NCBI GenBank assembly: GCA_030041985.1
Contig: JASIAM010000060.1
Location: 1-64,000 of the forward strand
Direction of reading: 5' to 3'
Source of the DNA: Bryobacteraceae bacterium
GTDB taxonomy: Bacteria > Acidobacteriota > Terriglobia > Bryobacterales > Bryobacteraceae
DNA: 64,000 bases
This document shows, piece after piece, positions 6,515-14,115 of this stretch. The notes under the pieces were generated by a model, which worked only from the letters and a program-made list of their open reading frames with translations, was not told the DNA's origin and searched no databases. Each line of letters opens with the position of its first letter. Positions within the stretch are counted from its first letter, which is position 1. Position numbers and translations under genes: made by a program.

Positions 6515-8845
6515 ATGGTTTCGAAGAAAACACTCTCTTACTTTCGCGCCCCGGTAGTGATAGTGCTGGCTGTGGTGTCAACGGCTTGCCTCCGTAGTCC
6601 GGAAGATTACCTAAAAAAGGCCAATCAACTGGCCGCTCAGGGCAAGTATGCGGAAGCCGATTTAAATTACCGCAAAGCCATTCAGAAAAACGCGAATTAT
6701 GGCGAAGCTTATTATCAGCTCGCATTAGCGGATCTGAAGCTCGGAAAAGTAATGGACTCTTACCGGACCCTCGCGCGGGCGGTGCAACTGCTACCCAGCC
6801 GCGACGATGTGAAGGTGGAGATGGCCGATCTCAGCCTGTCACTGTTCCTGGCGGACCGGCGCCGTCCCCGCGCGCCCTGGGACGAAGCCCAGAAGCTGGC
6901 CGACGAGCTGCTGGCCAAGAATCCCCAGTCCTTTGACGCATTGCGTCTGAAGGGACATCTGGCGGCGGTCAGCCAGAACCTGAAAGACGCGGAAGGATTT
7001 TATTCCCGCGCCAATTCCATTCAGCCCATGAATCCGGAGGTTACGCTAGGCCTCGCGCAGGTGTGGTTTCAGGATGGGCGGGTCAAGGAAGCCGAAGATC
7101 TGGCCATGGCGCTGATGGCCAAAGACAAAACCTACGGGCCGGTTTACGATTTGCTCATTCAGCGGCGCCTGGTAGCCAAAGACATGAGCGGGGCCGAGCA
7201 ACTCCTGAAAACCAAGCACGCGAATATGCCCAAAGATGCGGCAACGTCACTGGAGCTGGCGCGATTTTATGCCGGTACGTCGCGGGAGGCCGATATGAAG
7301 GCCGTCTTGCAGCAGATGCTGGATGATCCCAAGACATTCCCGCAAGCCCCACTGCAGGCGGGTGATTTCTACGCCGTGCTGCGGCGCTGGGACGACGCGG
7401 ACAAGCAGTACGAGGCGGGCGCCCAGGCCACCAGCACCGGCAAGGACAATACCGCGCAGCATGTCACTTATCTGAAAAGAGTGGCGGATCTGGCGCTGCT
7501 ACGGGGCAAAAGCGACGAAGCCAACCGGGCGATCGATGAGATTCTCAAAGTCGCGCCCGATGATCAAAGCGCGGTGGCTGTGAAGGGCTCTTTATTGATT
7601 GCGACGCGCAAGCCGGAAAATGCCGCCAAAGCGGTTGCCTTACTGCAGCCGGCGGTCGCGAAAAACCCAAACAACGCCAACCTGCATTACACCTTGGGAC
7701 GGGCACTAGCGGCCAAAGGAGACCTGGATGCGGCCCGCTCGGAATTTCTGGTGGCCGTGCAGAAGAACGACAGGTTCATCGAACCGCGGCTGGCGTTGGC
7801 CGAAATGGGGCAACTGAGAGGCGATTATCAGACCACCTTGCGCTACGCCGACGAGATCCTCGCCATCAATCCCAACCTGACGCGCGTGCGCGTGCTGCGG
7901 GCGGTGAGCCTGATCAATACGGGAAACTCCGCCGATGGGCGGAAAGAGCTGGAAACTCTCGAGCGGAGCAACCCTCAGGACAAGGAACTGCAGTTGCAAC
8001 TGGGCGTTCTGGAATTGCATGACAAACACTTCAAGGAGGCGGAAGAATACTTTCGCAAGCTGACCGCCGATAGTACGAACGATGTGCGCCCGCTCTCCGG
8101 GCTGACGCAAACCCTGGCGGCCGAAGGGCAGCTCGACAAAGCCGTAGCGCTGCTATCGGAGGATCTCAAGAAAACGCCCAATAACAATCAGCTTCGTTAT
8201 CTGTACGCGGTTACGGCGGCTATGGCGGGACGGTACGACACGGCGGTTGAGGAATTTCAGCACCTGGTGGCCGCCAGCCCGCAGACGACACAGCTCTACG
8301 TGGCGCTGGGGAATGCCTATCGCCTGAAAGGAGACACGGCCGATGCTCTGGCGACACTCGAAAAGGGCGCCGGGCTGGCGCCGAAAGACCCGACTCCGGT
8401 AGTCGCTGAGGCGGAAATCCTAAACAGTATGAACCGCCAGCAGGAGGCGCTGGAGAAATACCGCGCCGCGCTCCGCATGAGCCCCGATAATGCCACGCTG
8501 CTGAATAATGTGGCTTATCTGATGGCGGACACGGGAGGCAGTCTGGACGAAGCTCTGAAATACATACGCCGCGCATTGCAACTGGATGCCAAGCAACCAC
8601 GCTATAGCGACACGCTGGGATGGATCTATTACAAACAGAACCTGAATGACACCGCCATGCAGGTGTTTCGTGGGCTTACTGAAACGAACCCCGATAATGC
8701 CACTTTCCACTATCACTTTGCCATGGTGCTACTGAAGAGAGGCGATAAGGCCATGGCCAAAACCGAGCTGCAGAACGCGCTGGCTAAGAAGCCGTCCGAC
8801 GAAGTGCGCCACGACGCGCAAACGGAGCTATCGAAGATCGGGTAG
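6515..8845 (+). CDS. Large TPR-repeat lipoprotein (PrsT-like)
   Basis: 776 residues. An N-terminal signal ends in a lipobox-like VVSTAC, followed by tandem TPR units to the C terminus (for example QLAAQGKYAEADLNYRKAIQKN, and a final unit GWIYYKQNLNDTAMQVFRGL). Length and layout resemble the PEP-CTERM/exopolysaccharide TPR lipoprotein family (PrsT, TIGR02917), which is usually found near polysaccharide loci; a large glycan locus starts at 17 kb here. No exosortase is visible in the window, so the PrsT assignment is by likeness only. The last 188 bp of the coding region plus 13 bp of 3' flank (8658-8858) are repeated at 13528-13728, at the far side of a 4.87-kb insertion. Confidence 0.85.
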   Translation: MVSKKTLSYFRAPVVIVLAVVSTACLRSPEDYLKKANQLAAQGKYAEADLNYRKAIQKNANYGEAYYQLALADLKLGKVMDSYRTLARAVQLLPSRDDVKVEMADLSLSLFLADRRRPRAPWDEAQKLADELLAKNPQSFDALRLKGHLAAVSQNLKDAEGFYSRANSIQPMNPEVTLGLAQVWFQDGRVKEAEDLAMALMAKDKTYGPVYDLLIQRRLVAKDMSGAEQLLKTKHANMPKDAATSLELARFYAGTSREADMKAVLQQMLDDPKTFPQAPLQAGDFYAVLRRWDDADKQYEAGAQATSTGKDNTAQHVTYLKRVADLALLRGKSDEANRAIDEILKVAPDDQSAVAVKGSLLIATRKPENAAKAVALLQPAVAKNPNNANLHYTLGRALAAKGDLDAARSEFLVAVQKNDRFIEPRLALAEMGQLRGDYQTTLRYADEILAINPNLTRVRVLRAVSLINTGNSADGRKELETLERSNPQDKELQLQLGVLELHDKHFKEAEEYFRKLTADSTNDVRPLSGLTQTLAAEGQLDKAVALLSEDLKKTPNNNQLRYLYAVTAAMAGRYDTAVEEFQHLVAASPQTTQLYVALGNAYRLKGDTADALATLEKGAGLAPKDPTPVVAEAEILNSMNRQQEALEKYRAALRMSPDNATLLNNVAYLMADTGGSLDEALKYIRRALQLDAKQPRYSDTLGWIYYKQNLNDTAMQVFRGLTETNPDNATFHYHFAMVLLKRGDKAMAKTELQNALAKKPSDEVRHDAQTELSKIG

Positions 8846-8858
8846 AGACACACTGGCG
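8658..8858 (+). repeat. Left 201-bp direct repeat (3' end of TPR gene)
   Basis: This segment covers the last 62 codons, the stop codon and 13 bases after it. It recurs without gaps at 13528-13728, exactly 4,870 bp away. By eye there are six differences, all in the first half and all silent third positions (CGT/CGC, GGG/GGC, ACT/ACC, CCC/CCT, ACT/ACC, CTA/CTG). The last 100 or so bases are identical. Confidence 0.95.
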
Positions 8859-9227
8859 CTTAAGAGGCCGCCCGCAGCGTAAGCCCCGCACCCATTATAA
8901 AGGGCGAGAAAGGAAGCTTCTCCGAGTAATCCCAAAGGTGCTTCGACTGGAACCCGGGCGCCACAGGAAACGAGTGTTCGGCCGCCCGGCTCGGCTGCTC
9001 CCTGGAACGACCCAGACCCATTAAAGAGTCATCCACACACTGCGGTTTGGCTCACTGCCCGTTTCATCAGCTTGCAGTCGACGAATACTCGCGTCCCTGT
9101 GGTTGGTGACGAACCTTATCGGAAACGTTTCTTTGAATTCTCAATAACATTTGCATGAGGTGCATTAAATTGCTGGACATAATTGTTTTTCCGTGATATA
9201 AGTCCCGTACAAAAGGAAGGAGTTGAG
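8846..9227. other. Left non-coding flank of the insertion
   Basis: About 380 bp after the TPR gene. The first 13 bp belong to the direct repeat. From about 9120 the sequence becomes clearly AT-rich and carries the promoter of the small peptide gene (9174-9202). I see no coding region, transposase fragment or tRNA in it. Confidence 0.6.
9174..9202 (+). promoter_or_regulatory. Sigma70-like promoter of the Cys-rich peptide gene
   Basis: TGGACA at 9174-9179, a 17-base spacer, then TATAAG at 9197-9202. This is one of the best promoter matches in the window. Predicted transcription start is near 9209, giving a leader of about 20 bases that carries the strong Shine-Dalgarno AAGGAAGGAG just ahead of the ATG at 9228. 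It suggests the small peptide gene is well expressed on its own. Confidence 0.6.
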
Positions 9228-9464
9228 ATGGTTTCAAAGATGTCAAGCTTTAAGGATCTACCCCTTCTAGCCGTTACGGCTTTGGCTTTGGCCGGCACGC
9301 CTCAGGCGGCGCGCTCCGGCGGCCTATGTTACTACTCCTGTGGTCAGGTATACGAGAATTGGATAGCAATGTGCGAGCATTTTTATTTCCCTCCCGCTTA
9401 TACATTTTGCCTGGATGTTGGGGAGGAGTCCTATGAGAGTTGTATCTCGCACTGCGCAAGCTGA
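9228..9464 (+). CDS. Secreted six-cysteine, tyrosine-rich small peptide
   Basis: 78 residues; the ATG at 9228 is chosen for AAGGAAGGAG just upstream (an earlier in-frame start at 9183 lies inside the promoter). Residues 1-32 are a Sec-like leader with a hydrophobic core (LPLLAVTALALAG) that ends in a Gly-Gly pair, so either signal peptidase or double-glycine processing is conceivable. The 46-residue core has Cys at 34, 38, 49, 61, 72 and 76, with spacings 3, 10, 11, 10 and 3, almost a mirror image. It has six Tyr; Tyr69 sits among Asp63, Glu66, Glu67 and Glu70, the kind of acidic setting used by tyrosine sulfotransferases. No family is recognised. Downstream come thioredoxin-like, TIGR03435, sulfotransferase and JmjC-like genes. 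A secreted disulfide-bonded and possibly modified peptide is inferred. Confidence 0.7.
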   Translation: MVSKMSSFKDLPLLAVTALALAGTPQAARSGGLCYYSCGQVYENWIAMCEHFYFPPAYTFCLDVGEESYESCISHCAS

Positions 9465-9771
9465 GAAACTCGCGGCATTCTAGTGTAGGGGTTGGCGGCC
9501 TTGGCAGGTCGGCCGAAGTCCGCAGGATCAGACTACTGTCGAAGAGCGCGGGGCAAGTCGCGAGTGGTCTTACGCCCGTCTCGTGACGGGCAATTATAGT
9601 ATGCACGGTGTGAATAAGGGAGCAGCATAGTTGGTACGGCCTATTTGCCAGCGCTGTCGTTTCACTGGACGGCGGTTTAGGGAAAGGGGAGTCTCGTGGC
9701 CTAGCTAATTCGAGCCGATCCTGCAAACATTCGAATAGGATTACACTTTTCCTACTCAGGAGACCAGGACA
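9465..9771. other. Gap between peptide gene and thioredoxin-like gene
   Basis: 307 bp with no convincing coding region. It holds the hairpin at 9574-9591 and, at its end, the Shine-Dalgarno CAGGAGA (9757-9763) of the next gene. The size of the gap next to the tight spacing of the following four genes suggests the peptide is expressed as its own unit or at a higher level. Confidence 0.5.
9574..9591 (+). terminator. Perfect 7-bp hairpin with 4-base loop (attenuator-like)
   Basis: GCCCGTC, loop TCGT, GACGGGC: a perfect GC-rich stem about 110 bp after the peptide stop codon. No run of T follows (AATTATAGT instead), so it is not a textbook intrinsic terminator. It could be an attenuator or a 3'-end stabiliser of the peptide mRNA. 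Confidence 0.35.
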
Positions 9772-10317
9772 ATGATAGAAAAATCGTTGAGATTTATAGC
9801 CTACCTCGCAGTTATTGTCTTGTGCTTCGTTCGAGTGTATTCCTATTGGAGCAACAAGGGCGCTGCGCCTCATCCTTCGGCCGAATCCTTGGCCGCACAT
9901 CTTGTCGGTTCCAGGATCGGCCTCGGTGGGAATGCCACAGGTGAGGCAGTCCGGGCGAGCGTCGTTATTGCCATGACTAAGTCCTGTGTTTATTGCCGTG
10001 CGAGTGCGCCATTCTACAGGAGGCTGATCCGGGAGGCCCAAAACCTTCCTGGAGGTGTCAGGACGATCGCGGTTATGCCGGAAAGCAGGGATGCTGCGGA
10101 CAGTTACCTGAGGAATTCACTTATCCTTACCTTCGATGACGTCGTGCAATCCTTGCCAGGGTTTCGTGCGGCTGCTACGCCTACTTTGATTGTGACCGAC
10201 AGGCAGGGAGTCATCAAAGGAGCGTGGGTCGGGTTCCTGAGACCGGAAGCCGAAAATGCAGTTCTAGCGGCGCTCTGCCGCATGTCTGGGGCTGCGGGGG
10301 CTGTGTGCCGCAGTTGA
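9772..10317 (+). CDS. Membrane-anchored thioredoxin-fold protein
   Basis: 181 residues. An N-terminal membrane anchor spans about residues 7-25 (FIAYLAVIVLCFVRVY), followed by a thioredoxin-like domain with a C-V-Y-C active site at residues 72-75 after VVIAMTKS, and a TPT segment at 136-138 in the expected cis-proline position (ATPTLIVTDRQG). These are hallmarks of TlpA/ResA-type extracytoplasmic thiol-disulfide proteins. CVYC is unusual compared with CGPC or CxPC. The gene starts the four-gene run behind the Cys-rich peptide, so a role in forming or editing its disulfides is a reasonable inference. Shine-Dalgarno CAGGAGA at 9757-9763. Confidence 0.75.
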   Translation: MIEKSLRFIAYLAVIVLCFVRVYSYWSNKGAAPHPSAESLAAHLVGSRIGLGGNATGEAVRASVVIAMTKSCVYCRASAPFYRRLIREAQNLPGGVRTIAVMPESRDAADSYLRNSLILTFDDVVQSLPGFRAAATPTLIVTDRQGVIKGAWVGFLRPEAENAVLAALCRMSGAAGAVCRS

Positions 10318-10333
10318 CTATGGAGTTACATCA

Positions 10334-11128
10334 ATGCACCGACCCTTTCTCTTATGCCTCGCTAGCCTAGCGGTGGCGACAGAATTGTCAGCGCAGGGGA
10401 TCTCGGGTAAGGAGTTTGAAGTGGTCTCGATCCGCGTTCCTCAGGAGCTCAGCCGTGAGGAATACTCCGCAAACCCAGGCTCACGGATAGTGCAGATCGA
10501 CAAGGGGTTTGTTACGATGCCCTACGCCAGAATGGAAATTATACTCCAACGAGCGTTTGGCGTGACCAGGCCCCAGCTAATCGCGCCCGAGTGGACGCAA
10601 TCACGCTACTTTAGCATTGAGGCAAAACTGCCTCCGGACGCTGCTCAGGGCGATGTTCCGGAGATGCTCAGGAATATGTTGGTGGCACGTTTCCACATGG
10701 GATACCACAAGGAGGTCAGGAACACAACGGTTCTCGTGCTAGCCTCTGCAAAAGGGGGTACAAAAGCGGAAGCTGCCGCCGCGGAATCCCGGTCACGGCG
10801 GCGGGGGATAGAGCACGGTGGAACGCATTTCGACTTAACGACGACCTCCGTTGGCCTCGCGGACTTTCTGGCCCAACGCACATTCGGCCCCGTGGTTGAC
10901 AGGACGGGTCTGGCGGGTACATATTTGTTCTCGTTTGATTTTTATCCTTTCGGGAAGTTGGGGGGGGATGGAAACCCGTTGGGCCCGCCGACCAACGATT
11001 TCTTTGCGGATCTGGTCCGGCATTACGACGACGCACTGGCCCCTATCGGTCTTCGCCTCACCCCGGCCAAGCTGCCGATGGAAAATGTCATCATTGACCA
11101 GCTTGACCGCACGCCCACTGAGAATTGA
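10334..11128 (+). CDS. TIGR03435 family secreted protein
   Basis: 264 residues with a signal peptide (MHRPFLLCLASLAVATELSAQ) and then the conserved FEVVSIRVPQ start of the TIGR03435 family. Further family-like blocks are GFVTMPYARMEIILQRAFGV, the FSIEAKLPPDA region and a late DRTGLAGTYLFSFDF block. The family is known as a Solibacter/acidobacterial expansion of extracytoplasmic proteins without an established function. It starts 16 bp after the thioredoxin-like gene, so the two are probably co-transcribed. It is the best clue in the window to the host lineage. Confidence 0.85.
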   Translation: MHRPFLLCLASLAVATELSAQGISGKEFEVVSIRVPQELSREEYSANPGSRIVQIDKGFVTMPYARMEIILQRAFGVTRPQLIAPEWTQSRYFSIEAKLPPDAAQGDVPEMLRNMLVARFHMGYHKEVRNTTVLVLASAKGGTKAEAAAAESRSRRRGIEHGGTHFDLTTTSVGLADFLAQRTFGPVVDRTGLAGTYLFSFDFYPFGKLGGDGNPLGPPTNDFFADLVRHYDDALAPIGLRLTPAKLPMENVIIDQLDRTPTEN

Positions 11129-11166
11129 CGCCGTCAGGAGGGTAGCGTATCAGGAAAGGAGTTTCT

Positions 11167-12207
11167 GTGCTGATTCTGGATGATCACAATCCTTGGGTCC
11201 CCGCCATGCGTAAGGTGGAATGGCCTGCATCAAAGATTCCTCCAGGATGGCTACCAGCGGCTGTGAGCGGTGGTAGGGCCGTTATCAGGTGGATCTACGT
11301 TGGAAGAGAGCCGTTAGCCGAGGCATTTCTCCCTGAAACAGTTAGGAGGTTGCGCGCGAGTGAGCCACCTGCCGTCGAATGCGAGACCGAGGTTTCGGTC
11401 TTGGAACGACGCCCTGGGGAGCCATCTTCGGCACCACCGGCCGGCATCATTTTTCACATGACTAGGTGCGGTTCTACGCTTCTCGCCAATGCATTGCGGA
11501 GAGCGGATGAAGCTGTCGTCGTTAGCGAGTCTGCCGCGGTTGCCCGAGCTATGGAGTGGATCGGGTCGCCGTCCAGTTATTGGGCCGGAATTGGTGCGAG
11601 GCTTATAGAGTCTCTAACCGCTGTTTTCGCCAATTACCAGGCGCACGGCAAAGCGGGACGCGTCGTTATCAAGTGCTCCTCTCAAGAAATACGGTGTCTG
11701 CGGGAGTTACGGGCTGTGTGGCCGAGGGTGCCGTGCTTGATTCTAATACGAAATCCTATTGAAGTCCTGGTTTCGAATGCGCTAAAGCCTTCTAAGCTCT
11801 TTCTGGATTGGCAGGACCATCCCCGGGTCGTGCCGTTAGGCGTCCCGCCGGCGGAGGTCTTTGACGGCGGCGTTGTCGAGTTTTCTGCGTGGATGGCGGG
11901 TCGCTTCTGTTCCACGGCCTTGGCAGTTCTCGACGCCGGCTGCTGGGTGTTGGATTATGCTCAGATTACGCCAGAGGTGGCGAAGAAGGTTGCGAGGTAT
12001 TTCGGTTTGTCATTATCCGACGAGGGTGAGCAGGCCTTGACTGAGGTATTTCAGTTTCACTCGAAACGCCCCGACCGTGCTTTCATTGAAGACTCGACAG
12101 ATAAGATAGGATCTGCGGCCGAGCATATGAAAATGTGCGCTGCACGATGGATACAAGCACCGTACGATGAGCTGCGGAGTCAAAGCCGTACGCCGGAGCT
12201 AGTTTAG
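11167..12207 (+). CDS. Sulfotransferase-family protein
   Basis: 346 residues from a GTG at 11167, chosen because AGGAAAGGAG lies just upstream. Residues 95-108 (IFHMTRCGSTLL) match the 5'-phosphosulfate-binding loop of PAPS-dependent sulfotransferases, and LILIRNPIEVLVS around residues 191-203 matches the 3'-phosphate-binding strand (Arg195). About 90 N-terminal residues ahead of the loop resemble nothing I know. The gene sits 38 bp after TIGR03435 and 3 bp before the JmjC-like gene. In known systems such enzymes sulfate sugars, small molecules or tyrosines (RaxST). The substrate here is unknown; the tyrosine-rich peptide of the same locus is a candidate. Confidence 0.7.
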   Translation: MLILDDHNPWVPAMRKVEWPASKIPPGWLPAAVSGGRAVIRWIYVGREPLAEAFLPETVRRLRASEPPAVECETEVSVLERRPGEPSSAPPAGIIFHMTRCGSTLLANALRRADEAVVVSESAAVARAMEWIGSPSSYWAGIGARLIESLTAVFANYQAHGKAGRVVIKCSSQEIRCLRELRAVWPRVPCLILIRNPIEVLVSNALKPSKLFLDWQDHPRVVPLGVPPAEVFDGGVVEFSAWMAGRFCSTALAVLDAGCWVLDYAQITPEVAKKVARYFGLSLSDEGEQALTEVFQFHSKRPDRAFIEDSTDKIGSAAEHMKMCAARWIQAPYDELRSQSRTPELV

Positions 12208-12210
12208 CAG

Positions 12211-13497
12211 ATGAACAATCCACTGACGCTCAAGATGCTCCTTGCACCCCATGAAGAGGGCGATTTCCTGGAGAGCGTTATGGGTCAGTCCGCTCTCTAC
12301 GTTCCTGGAGTGTCCGGCAAGTTCGAGCACCTCTTCTCTTGGGTGAAACTCAATTATTTATTGGAATTTGGTGGACTTTCGTTTCCTCGCCTGCGACTCT
12401 TCAGAGGTGGGCAAGAAGTACCGAAGGCCTCCTATTTTACGGCTGGCCGTAGCGGGTATGAGCGGCCCCTGGTCCGGGGGCTGACAACTGAACTGCGCGA
12501 AGGCGCCATGCTGACGATCGAATCTATCGAGGAGCTACACGAGCCGATTTCAGTCCAGTGTCGTGTGCTGGAGCGGAGCTTTGGGATCCCAGTCCAGGCC
12601 GACTTGTATGCCAGTTGTCGGGACAGGCCTACGCCGCCGTTGCGGCAAAACGACCACGATGTCATTGTTCTACAGTTGGAAGGCGCACGTCGTTGGCAGC
12701 TTTATTTTCCGATAAACCGGCGGGCAGCCCGGGGGAATGGGTCACTGGAACCTGTTGCGGCGCCTGCGTGGGAAGGTGTGGTGGATACCCACGATCTGCT
12801 TTATGTTCCCAAAGGATGGCGATATTGTGATGAACCAGCCGGAGAACATGGAGTGTGCCTCGCGCTAAAGTTTAGAAATCCAACCGCATTGGACGTTGTG
12901 AGCAGACTTGTAGTACAGCTCGGTGTGAGTCGAAAAATGAGCGCGAGCATCCCGCGGTTCGCTGATGCAGAGAGGCAGGGACGGTTCCTAAGAGATGTGC
13001 AGCAGAAGTTGGCTGAGGCAGTGACACACCCTGGCTTGTTGGCGGGATACTTAACTGGCGTCAGATTTTTCGCGGAGCCGCGGCACGCCTTTTCCCTTCC
13101 ATGGGCGGGACTCCCGAGTCCGTTGCCGCCAGCAGATGATTGGGTGCTGACGCCTCTTTTGGGGTTTCCTGCGTCCGACTCTCTAGTACATTCGGAGCTT
13201 GAGGACGTTTGCGAAATTGTCGTTGACCGACAGGTGGTCCGTTTTAGCGAGGATGTTGCCGACGTTGTTCAGTCGATTCTTGACAGTGAGAGTACCACTG
13301 TAGGCTCCCTGATCTCTGCGTTCGCGTCGAGTGTACCTGCGGAGCGAATTTTGGAATGTGTAAGTGAACTAGTGAAATGTGGAGCTGTTTGCTTCCGGGA
13401 ACCTGGTTTTCGTCATGCAGCTAACCATAGGCTGCCAGGATCAGGAGTCTGCAGGAGCTTTCTCTGCTCCGAGTCACCAACTCGAGTAAGGCCTTAG
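12211..13497 (+). CDS. JmjC/cupin-like protein with probable loss of metal ligands
   Basis: 428 residues. Residues 120-220 resemble the Cupin_4/JmjC fold of bacterial ribosomal oxygenases (HDVIVLQLEGARRWQLY, then DLLYVPKGWRY). Where these enzymes have H-x-D of the iron-binding triad, here residues 145-147 read R-Q-N. The distal His after the LYVPKGW strand appears replaced by Leu217, and GWxH reads GWRY. If this by-eye alignment is right the protein cannot bind iron in the usual way. The C-terminal part (about 310-400) looks like a small winged helix, as in ribosomal oxygenases, and could also be compared with PqqD-like peptide-binding domains. It starts 3 bp after the sulfotransferase, so the two probably act together. 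Confidence 0.6.
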   Translation: MNNPLTLKMLLAPHEEGDFLESVMGQSALYVPGVSGKFEHLFSWVKLNYLLEFGGLSFPRLRLFRGGQEVPKASYFTAGRSGYERPLVRGLTTELREGAMLTIESIEELHEPISVQCRVLERSFGIPVQADLYASCRDRPTPPLRQNDHDVIVLQLEGARRWQLYFPINRRAARGNGSLEPVAAPAWEGVVDTHDLLYVPKGWRYCDEPAGEHGVCLALKFRNPTALDVVSRLVVQLGVSRKMSASIPRFADAERQGRFLRDVQQKLAEAVTHPGLLAGYLTGVRFFAEPRHAFSLPWAGLPSPLPPADDWVLTPLLGFPASDSLVHSELEDVCEIVVDRQVVRFSEDVADVVQSILDSESTTVGSLISAFASSVPAERILECVSELVKCGAVCFREPGFRHAANHRLPGSGVCRSFLCSESPTRVRP

Positions 13498-13527
13498 GCC
13501 GGAGAGTGCGTTTTGCGCGGTGGGCTC

Positions 13528-13830: not shown

Positions 13831-14115
13831 ATGGAAGTGCAGTTCACCCCCGATCAGAAGGCCTTTGTCCGCCAGGCGATTGAAAGCGGACGGCTGCAGC
13901 GCGAGGAAGACGCGGTGAAGGAGGCGCTGTCGCTGTGGGAAGAGCGCGAGCGCCGAAGATTGGAAATCCTGGTGGCCGCCGATAAGGCAGAAGCATCATT
14001 GGTGCGCGGCGAAGGACGTAGGGTGAGGACCGAAGAAGAAGCCAGCCAGCTTGCCGCCGACGTGAAACGGCGTGGTATGGCGCGCCTGAATGCCGCATCG
14101 AATCCCCGCTCATGA
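13831..14115 (+). CDS. ParD-like antitoxin
   Basis: 94 residues. The N terminus (VQFTPDQKAFVRQAIESGR, then EDAVKEALSLWEERERRR) is a ribbon-helix-helix domain of the ParD type, which binds DNA and represses its own operon. The charged C-terminal half would wrap the toxin. The stop codon overlaps the toxin start as ATGA (14112-14115), the standard coupling of such pairs. A leaderless promoter may drive it. Confidence 0.8.
   Translation: MEVQFTPDQKAFVRQAIESGRLQREEDAVKEALSLWEERERRRLEILVAADKAEASLVRGEGRRVRTEEEASQLAADVKRRGMARLNAASNPRS

Follow-up and report, generated by a model that had tools for sequence, protein, structure and literature searches.

Why should a small bacterial peptide space its cysteines so that the order reads the same from either end? 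The question is raised by a 78-residue open reading frame (ORF) at 9228-9464 of a 64,000-nucleotide stretch of Bryobacteraceae bacterium DNA (Acidobacteriota; contig JASIAM010000060.1 of assembly GCA_030041985.1, positions 1 to 64,000), here called the window. The peptide gene sits in a 4.7-kb segment (8859-13527, the island) bounded by a 201-bp direct repeat. A sequence-only reading of this DNA had pointed out the ORF and its cysteine spacing of 3-10-11-10-3, and both are present. The explanation that fits best, and that we consider likely, is a Sec-exported helical hairpin, stapled by disulfides and folded by a membrane-anchored thioredoxin-like partner. The feature is real and more general than had been claimed, with a biochemical core that we infer; the peptide becomes interpretable because of the family of this thioredoxin partner, which the sequence-only reading could not see. 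The features on which the argument rests are:

9215-9222, plus strand: Shine-Dalgarno-like site GGAAGGAG, read from the sequence, 5 nucleotides upstream of the peptide ATG
9228-9464, plus strand: secreted Cys-rich peptide of 78 residues, from ORF and translation
9772-10317, plus strand: membrane-anchored thioredoxin-like protein of 181 residues, with CVYC (C72, C75) and cis-proline P137

To judge from its sequence, the ribosome-binding site of the peptide gene is strong, while a consensus scan of 8700-10400 found no sigma-70-type promoter. The N-terminus consists of an n-region with Lys followed by the hydrophobic stretch LPLLAVTALALAG, and by inspection about residues 1-28 (9228-9311) would form a Sec-type signal. 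The cysteines are codons 34, 38, 49, 61, 72 and 76. The peptide has a charge of -6 and six tyrosines, some of which adjoin glutamates. Its spacing had been described as nearly palindromic: the symmetry stands, and "nearly" can be dropped since the mirror is exact. Gly31-Gly32 stand shortly ahead of the first cysteine and had suggested a double-glycine cut. This proposal found no support: the five genes of the island, to which the search for C39 was confined, encode neither a C39 peptidase nor an ABC transporter, and GG closely precedes the first cysteine in 4 of the 39 peptides of the comparison set described below, whose signals are Sec-type by inspection. Taken alone, the mirror symmetry of the window peptide is modest and mildly unusual. 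When six cysteines are placed at random over the same span, 0.23% of placements equal it; when the five gaps of the peptide itself are permuted, 6% of the orders are equally symmetric. The symmetry becomes decisive because sibling peptides show the same mirror rule.

Direct homologues of the peptide were sought and rejected, since the matches in phylum and family genomes are at chance level. Among 297 genomes of the phylum, 26 were matched at E ≤ 0.1 with about 30 expected by chance, and every match except the peptide's own has E of at least 0.0036; among 200 genomes of the family, 8 were matched at E ≤ 0.05 with about 10 expected. The search of its own genome returned the peptide itself and only two further matches, at E 0.56 and 0.94. 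Plasmids and phages gave no match, and the best E value against the PDB was 1.3. Pfam and NCBIfam assign no family, in line with the sequence-only reading, which had recognized none; one rubredoxin-like Pfam match lies below threshold (E 0.23). PADLOC recognized none of the five proteins of the island. Relatives of the peptide, if any, would thus have sequences beyond recognition.

The thioredoxin-like gene begins about 300 nucleotides downstream of the peptide gene, and its product is presumably the peptide's disulfide partner. With an N-terminal anchor, a CxxC motif and a cis-proline, it belongs to the ResA/TlpA-like membrane-anchored oxidoreductases. Alone it falls below the Pfam cut-offs and matches no NCBIfam family (0 matches), while weak NCBIfam matches among 27 aligned members are to ResA (10), DsbE (8), TrbB (6), MauD (3) and PedC/BrcD (1). 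All 27 rows of this alignment have C72 and P137 and at least 90% have C75, and the solved structures nearest to the family profile are ResA (3c73, E 3.1e-7) and other thioredoxins. The family is found in 25 of 200 family genomes with the window protein as single query, in 43 of 237 family genomes with the 27-row profile (E ≤ 1e-10) and in 11 of 252 genomes in a phylum-wide profile search (E ≤ 1e-15), the own genome being counted each time. A scan of named contigs yielded 22 loci, all from Acidobacteria, Acidobacteriota or Terriglobia by title, including Solibacteraceae/Bryobacterales and group 4.

The neighbourhoods of these genes were searched with a filter for ORFs that have a start codon with a Shine-Dalgarno-like site, a hydrophobic N-terminus, low Arg content and, after the hydrophobic N-terminus, at least four cysteines and 6% Cys. 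Set A comprises 73 loci from family genomes and named contigs, collected regardless of peptides; set B comprises 13 loci from the phylum-wide search; 79 loci fetched for other reasons (244,919 bases) served as controls. Seven duplicate contig loci, and locus L175, which is the same stretch as L212, were excluded before counting. In set A, a Cys-rich secreted ORF of at most 160 residues lies within 1.5 kb and on the same strand at 33/73 loci, and one of at most 450 residues at 43/73. Filter matches number 44 on the strand of the thioredoxin gene and 2 on the opposite strand, and the 274,100 bases lying more than 2.5 kb from that gene hold 2. The 244,919 control bases hold 0. In set B, 5 of the 13 loci have such an ORF under the strict filter and 6 under the relaxed one; with longer flanks, such an ORF lies within 1.5 kb and on the strand of the thioredoxin gene at 7 of the 13.

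From these loci came 39 small peptides, all distinct: set A gave 34 and set B 5. The window peptide is one of the 39, and none was selected for symmetry. Ten of the 39 have two or more gap pairs that mirror each other exactly around a central gap; with shuffled gaps the mean is 1.29 and the maximum 5, so that 0 of 2000 shuffles reach the observed count. At least three pairs are found in 8 of the 39 (shuffled mean 0.17, maximum 3, again 0 of 2000). The window peptide is outside these eight; like that of locus L136 it has two mirrored pairs. The spacings of the eight are:

L143: 3-10-6-3-9-3-6-10-3
L126: 3-17-7-11-7-17-3
L125: 2-6-10-3-8-3-10-6-3
L232, core: 3-10-14-11-14-10-3
L171, core: 10-6-3-9-3-6-10, with a second block 3-6-7-6-3
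L119, core: 6-3-6-3-6-3-6-3-6, flanked by 10 and 9
L227: 3-6-3-5-3-6-3
L235, core: 3-6-3-10-3-6-3

It was in set A that the mirror rule had come to notice; the mirroring of three of the five set B peptides is therefore an independent confirmation. We treat as one class the eight and the window peptide, nine members in all, and leave out the Gly-rich L136. The window peptide has the features by which the class is proposed, namely at least two mirrored gap pairs, proline only in the central gap, and a thioredoxin gene less than 1.5 kb away on the same strand. Seven of the nine have arms that match when one is read in reverse order and do not match in forward order. The number of cysteines is even in 36 of the 39 peptides (binomial 1.8e-8), and in the orthologous peptides of L240 and L248 all 18 of 18 cysteines are conserved as against 33 of 100 other residues. 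These two results indicate that the cysteines form pairs and are the conserved part of the sequence. In the less related pair L135/L147, 8 of 12 cysteines are conserved. The mirror peptides give small BLAST E-values against each other, yet most pairs are within chance when the cysteines are fixed and the other residues are shuffled. Higher z scores in this comparison are those of the window peptide with L171 (4.1), L232 with L119 (3.6), L143 with L119 (3.2), L235 with L119 (3.2) and L125 with L235 (2.2). As judged from these sequences, common descent of the mirror peptides is neither shown nor excluded. On the thioredoxin tree the window protein clusters with that of L125 (support 94/89), whose peptide is also mirrored.

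What fold would such a spacing serve? Most gaps plus one equal 4, 7, 11, 15 or 18 and are thus near multiples of 3.6, so that the cysteines of one arm share one face of a helix; the mean resultant of arm cysteines on the helix face is 0.74-0.96, a value given without a shuffled control. Proline is confined to the central loop: in the nine members it accounts for 0 of 440 arm residues and 10 of 80 central-gap residues (Fisher 4.5e-9). Structure prediction, which had been suggested as a check, gave one confident hairpin among five AlphaFold2 models, the other four being poor. The best model has helices at 25-51 and 55-76 (predicted local distance difference test score, pLDDT, 81.4) and forms a two-helix hairpin with three cysteines on each helix. 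This model and the mirror rule in the siblings bear out the earlier description of twin CX3C pairs on two helices with a central Cys pair. VIA-align matches the model to a fragment of walnut Jug r 2 (9q1l), with 37 residues aligned at 1.1 A and Z 5.5. Most other rows of this list show hairpins of a generic kind, for example ATP synthase c subunits and Rop, and are little informative; the list contains no CHCH protein, which we do not count as evidence against. The best reading of these findings is an antiparallel helical hairpin that would be closed by nested disulfides, with C34-C76, C38-C72 and C49-C61 as the probable pairs.

The comparison with alpha-hairpinins, also made by the sequence-only reading, may be apt for the kind of hairpin and fails as strict membership. 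According to PMC11591084, these plant peptides are antiparallel helix-loop-helix structures with twin CX3C, in which cysteines are sometimes the sole conserved residues, and their motifs are CX3C-X4-20-CX3C (4C) or CX3CX3C-X4-20-CX3CX3C (6C). The window peptide shares the twin CX3C and would share the hairpin, which one of its five models shows and which superposes on the Jug r 2 fragment; however, it has X10-C-X11-C-X10 between the CX3C pairs, which is outside the spacing definition, and it is bacterial, has a thioredoxin partner and has longer siblings. The CHCH and small Tim proteins of mitochondria, as described in PMC11832770, are disulfide-stabilized helical hairpins with twin CX3C or CX9C and a dedicated oxidoreductase. 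In contrast, the window peptide has twin CX10C with an outer CX3C instead of twin CX9C, appears to be exported by Sec, and would be served by a thioredoxin-fold protein rather than MIA40. Another parallel is pediocin, whose co-encoded CXXC thioredoxin-fold protein PedC lowers the minimum inhibitory concentration from 1.2 to 0.4 uM; the authors name further bacteriocins with such partners (PMC4919988). Proteins of the PedC/BrcD, BdbA and BlpGst type are CXXC thioredoxin-fold proteins encoded beside a disulfide peptide, as is probably the case here. However, the window thioredoxin does not match the PedC/BrcD model (TIGR01295), which is matched by 1 of the 27 aligned members (E 0.0075), no ABC transporter or immunity gene was seen in the island, and the peptides are anionic. 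The N-terminal anchor, CxxC and cis-proline are common to the window protein, the ResA/DsbE/TlpA-type thioredoxins and MauD. MauD serves a disulfide-rich secreted subunit; the window family, by contrast, is partnered with diverse Cys-rich secreted proteins, and no curated family fits the window protein.

In the mechanism that we propose, the precursor would be exported by the Sec route and its signal removed, leaving a mature peptide of about 45-50 residues with two antiparallel helices and a short turn that holds two prolines. The six cysteines would pair concentrically, the disulfides being made or corrected by the anchored, outward-facing thioredoxin-like protein, and the stapled helical hairpin would then be released. 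The folding step rests on the analogy with pediocin's co-encoded CXXC thioredoxin-fold protein; that the thioredoxin acts on the peptide, and that the peptide is secreted, we likewise infer. The pair probably belongs to a guild, patchily spread in Acidobacteriota, in which thioredoxins of this family go together with secreted Cys-rich proteins that diverge strongly from each other. Helical hairpins of various lengths, with mirrored spacing and a zipper of disulfides, are likely to form one structural class among these proteins. No description of a peptide-thioredoxin system of this kind was found in the literature searched, most subscription papers lying outside that search. A role between organisms is suggested by the patchy distribution, the extreme divergence and the apparently acquired segment (see below), and our guess is that the peptide is an extracellular interaction or antagonism molecule. 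The negative charge, found also in most siblings (36 of the 39 are anionic), disfavours a classic cationic membrane-lytic peptide. A wider reading, to which we give somewhat less than an even chance, is that Acidobacteria hold an arsenal of secreted cystine-rich peptides that is hypervariable and moves horizontally, and in which every peptide has an anchored thioredoxin of its own to fold it. The arsenal would include a mirror-rule fold in which the gap order, reversed about a Pro/Gly turn, gives a zippered hairpin of any length with no conserved sequence.

If this is true, bacteria have a class of disulfide-zippered helical hairpins that is invisible to sequence searches, since nothing is conserved but the rule of Cys spacing and the partner gene. 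Uncharacterized secreted peptides of soil Acidobacteria could then be reached by a practical route, finding the thioredoxin and reading its neighbour, and the loci would offer natural pairs of a peptide and its matching oxidoreductase in which dedicated disulfide folding could be studied.

Several observations weigh against this account. The window peptide is without a detected relative in the 297 phylum and 200 family genomes, and 30 of the 73 set A loci have no partner under the relaxed filter. Some of these loci are at contig ends, and at others the filter may have missed the neighbour. The L148 thioredoxin has lost the second cysteine of its motif in the 27-row alignment, and the mirror label shows no clustering on the tree of the thioredoxins, an equally low value being reached in 122 of 500 shuffles. 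L227 and L235 fit a forward repeat as well as a mirror. As to structure, the four poor models of the window peptide have pLDDT 43-50, and the model of L171 is poor as well (pLDDT 55.8), though partly helical. Helical hairpins match many folds, every VIA-align Z is under 8, and Foldseek returned no match with E under 4.

The island carries five genes, all on the plus strand: those of the peptide and the thioredoxin-like protein, and three more. The remaining features are:

8658-8858, plus strand: direct repeat, left copy, 201 bp, the 3' end of the tetratricopeptide repeat (TPR) gene 6515-8845
10334-11128, plus strand: DUF3738/TIGR03435 protein (Pfam/NCBIfam) with a signal-like N-terminus, a recurrent third gene
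11167-12207, plus strand: sulfotransferase-like protein, Sulfotransfer_3 below cut-off
12211-13497, plus strand: JmjC_2 cupin protein, aligned with MINA and L032
13528-13728, plus strand: direct repeat, right copy, 201 bp, bounding the segment 8859-13527

The repeat copies differ at 6 sites, all third codon positions and all within the first 74 nucleotides, and the last 127 nucleotides are identical. It looks as if the segment had arrived with the end of a relative's TPR gene through homologous recombination. No integrase was seen in the segment. Its G+C content is about 0.50-0.58; the DNA to its right has 0.60-0.64 and the TPR gene about 0.56-0.61. The thioredoxin-like gene is absent from the four other genomes of the same genus that were searched; therefore, the segment looks acquired. 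DNA relatives of the whole island were not found among the 200 family genomes, where its matches are mainly to the TPR gene end, to an antitoxin region on the right and to short scraps. This antitoxin ORF (13831-14115, to the right of the repeat), which we take to be ParD-like, has relatives 50-77% identical in many family genomes.

DUF3738 genes recur beside the thioredoxin gene: 18 such genes, all on the same strand, lie within 1.5 kb of it at 16 of the 73 set A loci. Elsewhere there is 1 in the far bases, 1 in the controls and none in set B. No paper in the literature searched mentions DUF3738 or TIGR03435.

The cupin probably has become a pseudoenzyme. Its hydroxylase activity is unlikely because all three Fe ligands, presumably H, D and H of HxD...H, are replaced in the alignment, the first by R, the second by N and the third by R or Y. 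The closest full-length relative, L032, retains them. An explanation of the peptide through the sulfotransferase and the cupin was dropped, as the loci of their relatives (L032, L046 and L047) have no recognized Cys-rich secreted peptide; the control filter, which covered these three loci, likewise found none. Both genes are regarded as cargo separate from the peptide. At L046 and L047, distant sulfotransferase relatives adjoin what we take to be GNAT-like ORFs and short Nif11-like ORFs, and one Nif11-like ORF is fused to a presumed Asp-hydroxylase-like domain.

Could the thioredoxin undo disulfides rather than make them? As an immunity or quality-control reductase it would break those of a toxic neighbour peptide. 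ResA-type proteins, its nearest solved relatives, are reductants in cytochrome c maturation, and no gene of the island stands out as a separate immunity gene. We consider this reading improbable: its partners are very different Cys-rich proteins, some of them long, which a folding catalyst fits better, and for pediocin the immunity gene is separate while the co-encoded CXXC protein raises potency (PMC4919988). Somewhat less probable still is a modified-peptide cluster, in which the sulfotransferase and the cupin would act on the peptide, for example by sulfating tyrosines near glutamates. The model for this is RaxX/RaxST, in which RaxX-type leaders use a C39 transporter. Both enzyme genes do lie in the same inserted segment and on the same strand as a peptide with six tyrosines, some beside Glu, and the sulfotransferase relatives at L046 and L047 are near Nif11-like ORFs, presumably of the kind that serve as peptide leaders. 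However, the sulfotransferase was seen at no other scanned thioredoxin locus and the cupin only as a short match at L140; the cupin is without Fe ligands, and a C39 transporter is absent among the genes of the island.

Cys-richness, together with the anionic character of most siblings, would also suit a peptide that binds metal in the manner of metallothionein, or a structural, coat-like peptide of the envelope; the cysteines would then be thiols or ligands and not form disulfides. The signal sequence, the even cysteine numbers, the thioredoxin partner, the mirror spacing and the restriction of proline to the turn fit disulfides that bridge a hairpin and make this unlikely. Least probable, and to our mind very unlikely, is that the window peptide comes from an orphan ORF and owes its mirror spacing to chance. 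The permutation of its own gaps and the lack of a homologue are in keeping with chance, but eight other partner peptides have at least three mirrored pairs where 0.17 would be expected, the gene has a strong ribosome site and a signal sequence, and no such ORF occurs in the control bases. The stapled hairpin with a folding partner remains our preferred reading.

The thioredoxin loci have other kinds of neighbours as well. At L124, L132, L158, L163, L164, L166 and L170 there is no small peptide; a secreted protein of 170-250 residues is found instead, with repeated segments of the CCSG/DSDCCSG type that mark a different disulfide class. Long Cys-rich secreted neighbours at L121 (4087-5280) and L241 (5239-6345) share a C-terminal motif like DxNxDGxxDxGSELF, which from its sequence is perhaps calcium-binding. 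L131 and L137, grouped with L142, have a tandem pair of similar Cys-rich peptides per thioredoxin gene. The tandem peptides retain 6 of 6 cysteines and differ in other residues, and at L131 and L137 their similarity suggests local duplication.
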